Assembly (NCBI RefSeq): GCF_020463795.1
Contig: NZ_CP080025.1
Location: forward strand, 3,035,501-3,099,500
Length of the DNA stretch: 64,000 bases
Direction: 5' to 3'
Source of the DNA: Echinicola marina
GTDB lineage: Bacteria > Bacteroidota > Bacteroidia > Cytophagales > Cyclobacteriaceae
Both the position numbers and the translations under genes were made by a program. Of this stretch, positions 25,297 to 47,288 are shown piece by piece. Positions within the stretch are counted from its first letter, which is position 1, and each line of letters starts with the position of its first letter. The notes under the pieces are model-generated. The model did no database searches. It was not told the origin of the DNA and saw nothing but the letters and a program-made list of their open reading frames with translations.

Positions 25297-25329
25297 AAAA
25301 AAAGCTATGAAACAATATCTCATAGCTTT
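25297..25329 (-). terminator. Terminator of tRNA-like RNA 1
   Basis: AAAGCTATGA/TCATAGCTTT stem with loop AACAATATC, followed on the minus strand by seven T. Identical to the terminator of copy 2. Confidence 0.85.
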
Positions 25330-25386
25330 AGTCAATTAACAATAAACCCAAAATAACCTGCTGTAAGAGAAGGACTCGAACCTCCA
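25299..25386 (-). repeat. Duplicated 3' half of the tRNA-like genes, unit 1
   Basis: The 88 bases at 25299-25386 match 25644-25731 (offset 345) with one difference, A25366 versus G25711. The shared unit spans terminator, 3' tail, acceptor 3' strand and T arm; the 5' halves do not align. Confidence 0.9.
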
Positions 25387-25454
25387 GAGTTGCTGTATTG
25401 AGTTTTCAACTCTTCCTGTAGAATAAGTTTAGTTTTAAACGTTGTCTTCTTACA
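25361..25454 (-). ncRNA. tRNA-like RNA 1 (acceptor and T arm only)
   Basis: A 94-base body on the minus strand. Acceptor stem TGTAAGA/TCTTACA (7 bp, perfect). T arm GGAGG-TTCGAGT-CCTTC with the canonical T loop. The 62 bases between them do not make a D or anticodon arm. They form a hairpin GTTTA/TAAAC and a 7-bp stem AGAGTTG/CAACTCT. The 3' end reads G-CA-GG, so CCA is not encoded. The gene has its own consensus promoter (25486-25517) and terminator (25297-25329). It is a tRNA-like, not a functional tRNA; whether it is aminoacylated is open. Something like a minimal tmRNA-type acceptor domain is conceivable, but no tag frame was found. Confidence 0.65.
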
Positions 25455-25485
25455 GTATAAAAAGCTTTTTGCTTTTTGTGTGATA

Positions 25486-25517
25486 CAAAATTAATAAAAC
25501 TTTTTGAAAAAAATCAA
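25486..25517 (-). promoter_or_regulatory. Consensus promoter of tRNA-like RNA 1
   Basis: Minus strand: TTG (25515-25517), 21-base spacer, TAATTTTG (25486-25493). After the start a small hairpin AAAAAGC/GCTTTTT precedes the tRNA-like body. Confidence 0.65.
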
Positions 25518-25643
25518 TTATCTATATAAAATAAATAGAAAATATGTTTTATATAGATAGAAAACGATTGCAATTTTATTTAATGAACCATTGACTTGGG
25601 ATTATGGCAGTGGTGTACTCATGTATTATGTCTTATAAAACAC

Positions 25644-25674
25644 AAAAAGCTATGAAACAATATCTCATAGCTTT
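25644..25674 (-). terminator. Terminator of tRNA-like RNA 2
   Basis: Same stem as copy 1 (AAAGCTATGA/TCATAGCTTT), followed on the minus strand by five T. Confidence 0.8.
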
Positions 25675-25731
25675 AGTCAATTAACAATAAACCCAAAATA
25701 ACCTGCTGTAGGAGAAGGACTCGAACCTCCA
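25644..25731 (-). repeat. Duplicated 3' half of the tRNA-like genes, unit 2
   Basis: Partner of 25299-25386, 87 of 88 bases identical. The single difference lies in the acceptor stem and is balanced by a change in the opposite strand (A-T pair in copy 1, G-C pair in copy 2). Confidence 0.9.
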
Positions 25732-25829
25732 CGGAGTAGTTAGGCAAAATACGAGCTCGCTATTTGCTTTATCCCAGCTTCTCCACCCCCGAGACAGGAG
25801 GGCTTGTCTGCCAATTTCAACACCCTACA
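25706..25829 (-). ncRNA. tRNA-like RNA 2 (class II-like, GUC in anticodon loop)
   Basis: A 124-base body. Acceptor TGTAGGG/TCCTACA (one G-U). Then U8 G9, a 3-bp D stem TTG/CAA with loop AAATTGGCAGA as in tRNA-Leu, anticodon stem CCCTC/GGGGG with loop CTGTCTC, a variable region of about 50 bases with GGAG/CTCC and an inner hairpin GCAAA/TTTGC, and T arm GGAGG-TTCGAGT-CCTTC. The loop would read GUC (Asp), but the class II shape and U at 37 do not fit tRNA-Asp. The 3' end is G-CA-GG without CCA. It has its own promoter and terminator. It may be a divergent tRNA-Leu relative, a specialised tRNA-like RNA or an expressed tRNA relic. Confidence 0.6.
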
Positions 25830-25867
25830 GTATAGATGAAAAGACCTTTTATCTCTTCCTTATGATA

Positions 25868-25897
25868 CAAAGGTAATATACTGGTTTTTAAATTCAA
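25868..25897 (-). promoter_or_regulatory. Consensus promoter of tRNA-like RNA 2
   Basis: Minus strand: TTG (25895-25897), 19-base spacer, TACCTTTG (25868-25875). The leader then contains a hairpin AGATAAAAG/CTTTTCATCT before the tRNA-like body, comparable in place to the leader hairpin of copy 1. Confidence 0.65.
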
Positions 25898-26017
25898 AAT
25901 AATTCAATAAATAAATTGAAATATTAGTGATTTTTTAATTTATACCATTGTTTGGTGTTGTATCTGTAATTAACGGTTTTGTTTATACGCGGTTTTTGAA
26001 CTTGATTTTTAGGTAAT

Positions 26018-32673: not shown

Positions 32674-34353
32674 ATGCAAGATTTTCCATGGTTTGAATAC
32701 TACCCCGAATCAGTGCCAAAAGAAGTAGATGCGGAGGCATATGAAAGTATAATCGGTCTTTTTAAAGAGAGTGTCCAAAAATACGGCGAGGCAGTAGCCT
32801 ATGAATGTATGGGCAAAACAATCAGTTTTATTGAGTTAGAAAAATTGTCCCGGGATTTTGCTGCATACTTACAGCAGGATTTGAAACTCAAGAAAGGAGA
32901 AAGAATAGCCATTCAAATGCCCAATTTGCTGCAATATCCTGTAGCCATGTTTGGGGCTTTGAGGGCAGGATTGATAGTGGTCAATACCAATCCTTTATAT
33001 ACAGCCCATGAGATGAAACATCAATTCGAGGATGCGGATATTTCTGCATTGGTGATAGTTTCCAATTTTGCCCATAATTTGGAAGCCATTTTGCCAACGT
33101 TAAAAGTAAAGCATATCATCATCACAGGTATTGGTGACCTTTTGGGTGGTCTGAAAGGTGGTATAGTGAATTTTGTGGTGAAATATGTCAAGAAGATGGT
33201 TCCTGAATACCATGTTCCTAATGCGATAAGTTTCAAAACAGCGATGGCCTATGGTGCCCAAAGAGGCCTTGATCCAGTTAAAATTGATTTAGGGGATATC
33301 GCTTATCTTCAATACACAGGTGGTACTACAGGGGTGTCCAAAGGGGCCGAATTGACCCATGGAAATATCGTTGCGAATATGCAGCAGATTTCTGCATGGA
33401 TGAAACCTAAATTAAAGGAGCATGAAGAGACGGTGATCACTGCATTGCCGCTTTATCATATTTTTGCCCTTACGGTAAATTGTTTGGCCATGTTAAAAAT
33501 CGGGGCCCATAATCTACTCATTACCAATCCAAGGGATATGAAGGCATTTTGTAAGGAACTTAGAAAGAATAAATTCAGTGTCCTTACTGGGGTGAATACT
33601 TTGTTTAACGGTCTGTTAAACCAAGAATCTTTCAGGAATTTGGATTTTAGCAGCTTGAAAGTAGCCGTTGGGGGAGGAATGGCTGTGCAAAAATATGTGG
33701 CTGATCGTTGGCACCAGGTCACAGGCGTGCCTTTGGCTGAAGGTTATGGCTTGACGGAAACCTCTCCTGTGGCTTGTTGTAATCCTATTGATGGAACGGA
33801 ACGCATTGGGACTATAGGTTTGCCTTTGCCCAATACAGAAGTGAAAATTGTGGATGATGAGGGCAATGAAGTTCCTCTGGGAGAAAAGGGCGAGCTTTGC
33901 ATTAAGGGACCACAAGTGATGAAAGGCTATTGGAAGCGTCCTCAGGAAACTGCTGATACCATGCTTGGCGACTGGTTGAAAACCGGGGATATCGCTGTGC
34001 AGGATAAGGATGGTTTCTTGAAAATAGTGGATAGGAAGAAGGAAATGATCCTAGTTTCAGGGTTTAATGTTTATCCCAATGAAGTAGAAGATGTTATAGC
34101 GGGACATGAAAAAGTAGATGAGGTGGGGGTGATAGGTATGCCTGATGAGAATTCGACAGAAAGGGTGGTGGCTTATGTTGTGGCCAATGATGAGAGTTTG
34201 ACTTCCGATGAATTGATCAGTTTTTGCAGGAAAAGTCTTACCAACTATAAGGTGCCGAAAGAAGTTTATTTTGTGAAAGAGCTTCCCAAATCCAATGTGG
34301 GGAAAATCCTTCGGAGAATTATTAAAGAAAATCACATGAAACAATCAGTATAG
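32674..34353 (+). CDS. fadD: Long-chain fatty acid-CoA ligase
   Basis: 559 residues, practically the length of E. coli FadD (561). ANL superfamily: P-loop YTGGTTGVSKGAELTH, adenylate-binding GYGLTETSPVACCNP, hinge and A8 motif GDWLKTGDIAVQDKDGFLKIVDRKKEMILVSGFNVYPNEVE (split here only for description), and the A10 lysine in LPKSNVGKILRR. Activates fatty acids with ATP and CoA at the inner membrane for beta-oxidation or lipid synthesis. An acyl-CoA dehydrogenase relic lies upstream and a terminator follows. Confidence 0.95.
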   Translation: MQDFPWFEYYPESVPKEVDAEAYESIIGLFKESVQKYGEAVAYECMGKTISFIELEKLSRDFAAYLQQDLKLKKGERIAIQMPNLLQYPVAMFGALRAGLIVVNTNPLYTAHEMKHQFEDADISALVIVSNFAHNLEAILPTLKVKHIIITGIGDLLGGLKGGIVNFVVKYVKKMVPEYHVPNAISFKTAMAYGAQRGLDPVKIDLGDIAYLQYTGGTTGVSKGAELTHGNIVANMQQISAWMKPKLKEHEETVITALPLYHIFALTVNCLAMLKIGAHNLLITNPRDMKAFCKELRKNKFSVLTGVNTLFNGLLNQESFRNLDFSSLKVAVGGGMAVQKYVADRWHQVTGVPLAEGYGLTETSPVACCNPIDGTERIGTIGLPLPNTEVKIVDDEGNEVPLGEKGELCIKGPQVMKGYWKRPQETADTMLGDWLKTGDIAVQDKDGFLKIVDRKKEMILVSGFNVYPNEVEDVIAGHEKVDEVGVIGMPDENSTERVVAYVVANDESLTSDELISFCRKSLTNYKVPKEVYFVKELPKSNVGKILRRIIKENHMKQSV

Positions 34354-45327: not shown

Positions 45328-45540
45328 AATGATAAACTTTTAACGTGATAAATAATTGTCAAAAGCCTTTAGCTAAACTTCGCAATGCTGCGATGGGAAG
45401 GGAAACTGAAAAATAAGACGTACCTTTCCCTTGGGCACATTTATCCCAGGAGAAGAAAGGAAAAGGAGTCGTACTTGACAGGTGCTTCAAACCGCGAAAG
45501 CATTGTCATTTCTGTCCTCCATAATGGACAGTTCAAAATA

Positions 45541-45710
45541 GGCAGGTCTCCTGGCTTGTAACATTTTTGCCGTCCTTCCCACCCCGATAGCTATCGGGAC
45601 AGTGGACATCCAATGGGCAAAAACTTTCACGTTACTTACAGTTGCGCGACAGCCCGTGATTTTCACACGGTTCCCTATTATCATCGACCTTAGCCGATGA
45701 CCTATAATGG
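45541..45710 (-). promoter_or_regulatory. Cobalamin riboswitch upstream of metE
   Basis: Read on the minus strand: AGGTC at the 5' side, AATAGGGAACC, then GAAAATCACGGGCTGTCGCG, CAACTGTAAGT, GATGTCCACTG (B12-box region), GGTGGGAAGG, and the diagnostic end AAGCCAGGAGACCTGCC, whose GACCT can pair with the 5' AGGTC. This is the conserved core of B12 riboswitches. The 210 bases from here to metE contain hairpins (for example TGTCC/GGACA at about 45513-45531) that could be the switch platform. A 91-codon open frame here is by chance. Confidence 0.92.
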
Positions 45711-45954
45711 TAAATGAAGAAATTATGTAAAGAACTTTGATCGGCAAATATAGGGAATGCAAACCGAATTGAGTATATAAATTAATCTGTGAAGTTTTAA
45801 ATAAGGAAAAATATTGATTGGAAAGGGGGTGGGTTAGAAAAAATAATAGGTTAAGATTATGGTTTCAATTGATTGATTTTAAATGGTTTATGTTTTTTGT
45901 TGTTGGCTAGGGTTTAGGTTTGTAAAAATAAAATGGTATCCCTATTTAAACTTA

Positions 45955-47191: not shown

Positions 47192-47265
47192 CGGAGTGTA
47201 GCGCAGCCCGGTAGCGTACTTGCATGGGGTGCAAGGGGTCGTGGGTTCGAATCCCGCCACTCCGA
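47192..47265 (+). tRNA. tRNA-Pro(GGG)
   Basis: 74 bases. Acceptor CGGAGTG/CACTCCG, D arm with CCCGGTAGCG, anticodon stem CTTGC/GCAAG with loop ATGGGGT (anticodon GGG), T arm GTGGG-TTCGAAT-CCCGC, discriminator A; CCA not encoded. Complete and intact. Next to an integrase gene, so it is the likely attachment site of the island. Confidence 0.96.
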
Positions 47266-47288
47266 CTCTTTCGAAACCTTTCGATTAT

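Follow-up and report, generated by a model that had tools for sequence, protein, structure and literature searches.

In both tmRNA and the bacterial Y RNA YrlA, a tRNA-like domain forms part of a longer RNA. In Escherichia coli, processing of a tRNA precursor releases its 3' trailer as the regulatory RNA 3'ETS-leuZ, a sponge for other sRNAs; the tRNA concerned is ordinary. In Bacteroides thetaiotaomicron, the FopS sRNAs are multi-copy paralogues with a common seed and bind near the start codon of mRNAs for SusC-like transporters, whose translation they were found by experiment to repress (PMC11697453). The sections of the FopS paper drawn on here give a length of ~65-70 nt, with the seed at the RNA's own 5' end, and mention no tRNA-like head (PMC11697453).

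The window analysed here, a stretch of 64,000 nt from Echinicola marina, contains two units with common 3' parts at 25297-25900 on the minus strand, as read from the sequence. We consider it rather probable that the units belong to a paralogous family of trans-acting antisense sRNAs with tRNA-like heads, whose tail would block translation at start codons. What was established here by computation is that the family exists, how its members fold, that they have a tail in common and that this tail has genomic matches in antisense positions. The body of unit 1 is called type A below and that of unit 2 type B; a third kind, type C, has only the tail in common with these. The features are:

25868-25898, minus strand: promoter-like element of unit 1, TTTG-N19-TACCTTTG (sequence; Bacteroidetes consensus)
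25841-25857, minus strand: 5' leader hairpin of unit 1 (sequence; a similar leader occurs in the own-genome copy at 2977696)
25706-25829, minus strand: body of unit 1, a type A class II tRNA-like RNA, positions 1-73 (covariance model, covariation)
25791-25797, minus strand: anticodon-like loop of unit 1, CUGUCUC, with GUC at 34-36, U37 and C38 (sequence, loop statistics)
25733-25784, minus strand: variable arm of unit 1 with an extra domain of internal loop and hairpin (structure; covariation of the long form)
25714-25730, minus strand: T arm of unit 1 (sequence, covariation alignment)
25671-25705, minus strand: tail of unit 1 with predicted antisense seed CAGGUUAUUUUGGGUUUAUUGUUAAUUGACUAAAG (antisense matches at start codons)
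25644-25674, minus strand: terminator-like hairpin and T run of unit 1 (sequence)
25486-25493, minus strand: promoter -7-like element of unit 2, TAATTTTG (sequence; clear -33 element not found)
25459-25476, minus strand: 5' leader hairpin of unit 2 (sequence)
25361-25455, minus strand: body of unit 2, a type B tRNA-like minihelix RNA of acceptor, hairpins and T arm, without anticodon arm (covariation of a related type B set, namely the copy at 850876 and its likely orthologues)
25326-25360, minus strand: tail of unit 2, with the same predicted seed as unit 1 (BLAST, comparison of tail-bearing RNAs)
25297-25329, minus strand: terminator-like hairpin and T run of unit 2 (sequence)

A preliminary description of the locus had placed both units here on the minus strand, and we recovered them at the same coordinates, each with the T arm, 5' hairpin, common tail and terminator-like hairpin reported for it. 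The near-identity of the 3' halves was likewise borne out, as genome BLAST aligned the units over 88 bases with 99% identity and the sole difference is compensated in the acceptor (TGTAGG/CCTACA in unit 1, TGTAAG/CTTACA in unit 2). The shared module is larger than the tRNA-like 3' half then recognized, since it also takes in ~60 nt of tail and terminator. A consensus promoter had been claimed for both units: unit 1 has the full TTTG-N19-TACCTTTG, which we take to resemble the Bacteroidetes promoter consensus, but unit 2 has only TAATTTTG, with no clear TTTG at the matching distance. Nor does the supposedly unrelated middle hold for unit 1, whose middle is an intact class II tRNA-like body with D arm, anticodon arm and long variable arm; the idea of a family with a fixed tRNA-like 3' module stands, but its variable inserts are two different things rather than one. 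The observed pair of units is not due to chance, because the same genome holds five full type A copies, two type B (unit 2 and a copy at 850876-850942) and one type C (near 3590979), 47 of 59 relatives have a match to unit 1 DNA, and the pairs covary in type A and, less strongly, in type B.

In the body of unit 1 the acceptor stem has 7 bp, the D stem 3 bp and the anticodon stem 5 bp; the D loop is like that of tRNA-Leu, the variable arm is long and the T arm canonical. This body scores 145 bits with the R1 type A model, unit 1 being among the sequences that built the model. Over 26 relatives type A is 99.5% paired, with six pairs changed on both sides, and sliding controls reached at most 65.1%. 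A long form of type A from other families has, within its variable arm, an additional helix of three base pairs and one more stem, together with a conserved GGGUUGACCAC loop. Of the 37 pairs predicted for this form, 22 are changed on both sides (30 sequences, nine of them viral). The cloverleaf of acceptor, D, anticodon and T arms is present in type A only, unit 2 having no anticodon arm. Unit 1 represents a class II tRNA-like RNA of old origin and wide distribution. That both units might be plain tRNA genes, an outcome the preliminary description had allowed for, is ruled out, since ARAGORN calls neither and neither matches Rfam RF00005 above its gathering threshold. No Rfam family was found above threshold at either unit, at one long type A RNA or at the loci of the other copies tested, and a search of open-licence PubMed Central papers yielded no paper on such an RNA, in agreement with the earlier statement that no described family of this layout was known.

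Loop statistics were taken from alignments A1 and A2, comprising 71 distinct chromosomal type A sequences found by whole-RNA similarity (BLAST or model) and not by an anticodon-fixing pattern; loci L073-L152 and L193-L251, found with an anticodon-containing pattern, were left out. Among these 71, U35, C36, C38, G73 and G2 occur in all and G34 in 67, counts that should be read knowing that the BLAST query and the model both held GUC, so that strongly changed anticodons could escape. Against the rule for decoding loops, which have U33 and a purine at 37, U33 is present in 54 of the 71, and position 37 is a pyrimidine in 71 and a purine in none. A viral pattern that stopped before the anticodon gave 54 stretches, and 12 of the 14 new loci among them were type A relatives (by eye), all 12 of which kept GUC and C38, with A37 in one (L290). 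Aspartate identity, in the part of PMC9976931 used here, is assigned mainly to G73, G34, U35, C36 and C38, and in bacteria to G10 as well. Type A carries the main set, with G34 missing in 4 of the 71, but not G10, position 10 being A in 41, U in 27 and G in 3. As judged from sequence, type A would be an RNA in which most elements of aspartate identity have been retained but decoding geometry has not.

Type A occurs in genomes of Cytophagales, Chitinophagaceae and Saprospiraceae and in uncultivated viral contigs. A covariance search of 395 genomes of the phylum gave at least 363 positive genomes, many with tRNA-sized hits only; among the matches listed, long hits (roughly at least 105 nt) lay above ~66 bits, together with one 76-nt match at 66.6 bits, and ordinary class II tRNAs (~82-86 nt) reached ~60 bits or less. 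A pattern scan of named genomes gave at least 120 stretches, 80 of them as loci; carriers among those listed were Chitinophaga, Dyadobacter, Fulvivirga, Algoriphagus, Echinicola and Cyclobacterium species and Saprospiraceae MAGs. In IMG/VR, 59 contig stretches matched the anticodon-containing type A pattern; the model found every one of them again, including two that run off the end of their contig. Each of the 15 viral loci scanned had at least one ordinary tRNA, three had tRNA-Asp(GUC) and two had tmRNA (in L205 and L220 the tmRNA gene lies beside the type A RNA). INPHARED and PLSDB gave no match that would point to an annotated phage or plasmid origin.

The viral copies show several further peculiarities. 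Of 34 distinct viral inserts, 24 have a perfect palindrome of at least 10 nt immediately after GACCAC on the 3' side (1.3 in shuffles); L204:3169-3319, L213 and L251 are examples. A kissing dimer through palindromic loops was rejected as a general mechanism, with no excess of palindromes in chromosomal long forms, as was an interaction between the GUC and GACC loops, many GUC copies having no GACC. In the copies of L198, L216, L222 and L233 the D loop is enlarged by an insert that looks like a hairpin and is palindromic in some of them (by eye), and at L291:8892-8982 lies an insert-free type A relative that ARAGORN calls tRNA-Asp(GUC). Separately, the viral contigs L204 (at 2767, 2989, 4203, 4557 and 5543, counted on the reverse strand), L241, L242 and L246 carry RNAs of 106-149 nt whose acceptor, D and T arms resemble those of tRNA-Leu and are almost identical to one another (AGTCAGG...CCTGACTA), while their middles are unrelated and have no clear anticodon; these RNAs parallel types A and B and may be another class of tRNA-scaffolded RNA.

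Gene context divides the type A loci. Counting loci with at least 700 nt upstream (9 of 137 were shorter and set aside), a divergent Lrp/AsnC-type gene lies within 600 nt (median 152) in 81 of the 105 type A loci outside the tail-bearing clade and in none of the 23 within it; the assignment is backed by Pfam for one such protein. The likely orthologue in E. marina lies at 4865934, away from any type A copy; the gene next to it looks SufB-like (by eye). At 32674-34353 of the window is an acyl-CoA-ligase-like gene (by eye) whose start resembles that of the gene directly downstream of type A in other genera, possibly a trace of an older gene order. The window also contains a cobalamin riboswitch at 45524-45720 (Rfam, 104.8 bits) and a tRNA-Pro(GGG) at 47192-47266 (ARAGORN).

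These observations bear on an explanation in which the tRNA-like head itself is the product, type A being a non-decoding RNA, charged with aspartate or bound by AspRS, for extra-ribosomal use or as a sensor, perhaps under Lrp/AsnC control, and the tail a mere trailer. We regard this as possible but doubtful: it would account for the spread of type A through several families and viral contigs, mostly without the tail, for the near-invariance of the aspartate set beside a loop at odds with decoding, for the retention of GUC and C38 in the new viral copies and for the frequent Lrp-type neighbour, but bacterial G10 is almost absent, one viral copy has A37, the GUC of query and model may hide changed anticodons, the host has three ordinary tRNA-Asp(GUC) genes, and types B and C lack the anticodon arm yet have the tail. 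For type A as such, a non-ribosomal aspartyl-RNA or an AspRS-binding RNA is our leading guess.

Returning to the antisense sRNA family that we favour, its tail can be followed across heads of quite different make. In the 23 type B sequences an acceptor stem is retained along with a T arm, or a hairpin resembling one, and most have one or two hairpins besides (acceptors were assigned automatically, except in a few rows, L260 and L270-L273, where the assignment was wrong and was replaced by reading by eye). In nine related type B copies three of the four hairpin pairs change on both sides, in seven cells in all, a weaker covariation than that of type A. Unit 2 is a degenerate type A relative without an anticodon arm, in which only the acceptor/T-arm minihelix and hairpins are left. 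The eight type C sequences have conserved blocks GAUUGGC, GUCU and UAGUUGAAGU. Behind A and B heads, across the genus and a few neighbouring genera, the tail GGUUAUUUUGGGUUUAUUGUUAAUUGACUAAAGCU hardly varies, and it is mostly kept behind C; types B and C were found through the tail, so the search itself guarantees its presence there, but not that it should stay so alike where the heads have diverged. Since TTTTGGGTT occurs within 45 nt 3' of only 34 of the 169 type A copies, the tail is confined to one clade and does not account for type A as a whole, for which the head must have another, older role. We think it likely that the functional element shared by the family is the 3' tail, acting as an antisense seed, and not the tRNA-like module, whose part is more probably in shaping or processing the RNA. 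Multiple dispersed copies with near-identical tails might also be expected of duplicated, decaying tRNA genes that gene conversion keeps alike and that have no function, but compensatory changes in type A and, more weakly, type B, copies across families and in viral contigs, and a tail almost identical between genera whose type B heads have diverged render this very improbable.

The first sign of what the tail may do was that its weak matches in its own genome are unexpectedly often antisense and directly upstream of start codons. BLAST in four genomes gave 62 non-paralogue tail matches, compared with 33 and 50 for two dinucleotide shuffles; at E <= 0.35 there were 19, compared with 2 and 3. 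We classified 54 of the 62 by position (of the other eight, seven fell largely or entirely beyond the main seed region on its 3' side and one, at 866314, was too near the edge of the stretch retrieved), all 33 of shuffle 1 and, for shuffle 2, the 30 of 50 that had been given loci, taking start codons from naive ORF calls. Antisense matches within 12 nt of an ORF start made up 21 of 54 for the tail, 2 of 33 for shuffle 1 and none of 30 for shuffle 2. The seed is thus complementary to start regions beyond chance, as expected of a FopS-like sRNA (21 of 54 vs. 2 of 63 for the two shuffles; Fisher P = 8e-7 at 12 nt and 9e-5 at 30 nt, orthologues counted separately). By name the 21 fall into ~11 gene families, and the two control cases are one gene in two species. 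The other 33 tail matches comprised six antisense at 31-150 nt, three sense within 30 nt (one gene in three copies), one sense at 31-150 nt, 15 inside ORFs and eight elsewhere, and shuffle 2 had 3 of 30 antisense at 20-27 nt.

Other measures of the tail were less marked. The exact 12-mer ATAAACCCAAAA is not enriched genome-wide, with 110 sites in seven genomes, ~66 of them non-paralogue, vs. 62 for the reversed pattern; 30 of the 110 were fetched, 15 of them paralogues, and the 15 non-paralogue sites comprised five antisense at starts, two sense at starts, seven inside ORFs and one unplaced. In two other genera the tail was antisense within 30 nt of a start in 5 of 21 matches, with three of the five within 6 nt, a share that does not stand out clearly from the controls (the 21 come from 29 non-self matches, of which seven others were terminator-side only and one a seed match without a locus). 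Duplex energies of the 21 start-antisense sites, which are selected sites, ranged from -19 to -35. Among 76 unselected starts of the E. marina genome one reached -19 or below, namely that of a gene that looks ECF-sigma-like (by eye), which follows the RNA copy at 2977696 at a distance of ~300 nt and has a site of -28.4 kcal/mol; an apparent orthologue of this gene in another genome also lies beside an RNA copy.

Among the genes so matched, sites recur between species for a symporter (four genomes), an MKxKNI outer-membrane-type gene (four), a SusC-like gene (two to three) and HPPD (two), orthology being judged by N-terminal sequence. For homogentisate dioxygenase, ATAAACCCAAAA stands 3-4 nt before the ATG in four genomes. 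The target candidates named by Pfam are a sodium:solute symporter, homogentisate dioxygenase, HPPD, two TonB-plug/CarboxypepD_reg proteins, a serpin and an FGGY kinase; a CarboxypepD_reg match of a third outer-membrane-type protein and a GDSL match fell below Pfam cut-offs. For the serpin and one TonB-plug gene the site is 63-104 nt upstream and not at the start. An acyl-CoA-dehydrogenase-like gene (named by eye) has the 12-mer in two species, where the flanks are as conserved as the site. In the symporter gene of three species, by comparison, the 25-nt site is identical at 24-25 of 25 positions vs. 25-32 of 45 for the 45 nt upstream.

Bacteroidota 5' UTRs are A-rich near starts, and the start-proximal matches might reflect the A/C-rich composition of translation starts rather than pairing, the tail then being conserved for termination or protein binding. 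The lack of genome-wide enrichment of the 12-mer is in line with this, but the dinucleotide-matched shuffles came within 12 nt of starts in antisense in only 2 of 63 matches, and the symporter site is conserved where its flank drifts; we therefore think a purely compositional origin unlikely.

In the favoured antisense mechanism the transcript would run from the 5' hairpin through the tRNA-like head and a ~35-nt tail to the terminator hairpin. The acceptor/T-arm minihelix, which type B retains, is the part recognized by RNase P and RNase Z, so the head probably sets the 5' end of the sRNA at the seed: both enzymes would cut at the head and free an sRNA of ~60 nt that begins with the seed. The tail core UUAUUUUGGGUUUAUUGUUAAUUG would then base-pair with mRNAs at or just upstream of the start codon and block translation, a ribosome block proposed by analogy with FopS. 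We infer that the units are transcribed and processed, and that they pair and repress in the cell. The predicted targets would be the sodium:solute symporter, the homogentisate and hydroxyphenylpyruvate dioxygenases, SusC-like TonB receptors, the ECF-sigma-like gene and the FGGY kinase. The head would derive from the older, widespread type A, and the unit 2 minihelix may be its remnant.

A broader proposal, which we advance tentatively and rate as plausible rather than probable, is that of an undescribed class of RNA: an aspartate-identity, non-decoding class II tRNA-like RNA with a variable-arm domain, widely distributed in Bacteroidia beside Lrp/AsnC genes and carried by viruses among tRNA genes, of which one clade would have turned the trailer into a base-pairing regulator of nutrient genes, some duplicates losing the tRNA body and keeping the processing minihelix and the seed. 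The antisense sRNA family, if confirmed, would extend multi-target antisense sRNA networks beyond the well-studied Bacteroides, and the head would link tRNA maturation to regulation. The predicted targets are concrete, namely both tyrosine-breakdown dioxygenases, a solute symporter and SusC-like receptors. For tRNA biologists, type A offers a conserved RNA that keeps aspartate identity elements, breaks decoding rules and is carried by viruses beside ordinary tRNA genes.

Set against the described systems, the units share with tmRNA and YrlA a tRNA-like domain in a longer RNA, but both identities are ruled out, as ARAGORN makes no tmRNA call at the window or own-genome copies and the TROVE protein domain (PF05731) was not found in this genome. 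By eye, the D and T arms of type A resemble those of the tRNA-Leu(GAG) of the same genome, and its anticodon arm that of tRNA-Asp; it differs from class II tRNAs, tRNA-Leu and tRNA-Asp in the extra variable-arm domain, the pyrimidine at 37 and the variable position 33, and the window copies escape ARAGORN and RF00005. With tRNA-Sec and allo-tRNAs, as presented in the portion of PMC7609411 consulted, type A shares a class II body and an unusual anticodon, but it differs in its 7+5 acceptor/T stem and inserted variable-arm domain, and that portion describes no RNA like it. As in 3'ETS-leuZ, the tail of the window units lies 3' of a tRNA-like head, but here the head is non-standard and the tail matches mRNAs. 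The likeness to FopS, drawn from the sections of its description used here, comprises multi-copy paralogy, a common seed and sites in start regions; the window units differ in having the seed 3' of a tRNA-like body, and their predicted targets add tyrosine breakdown.
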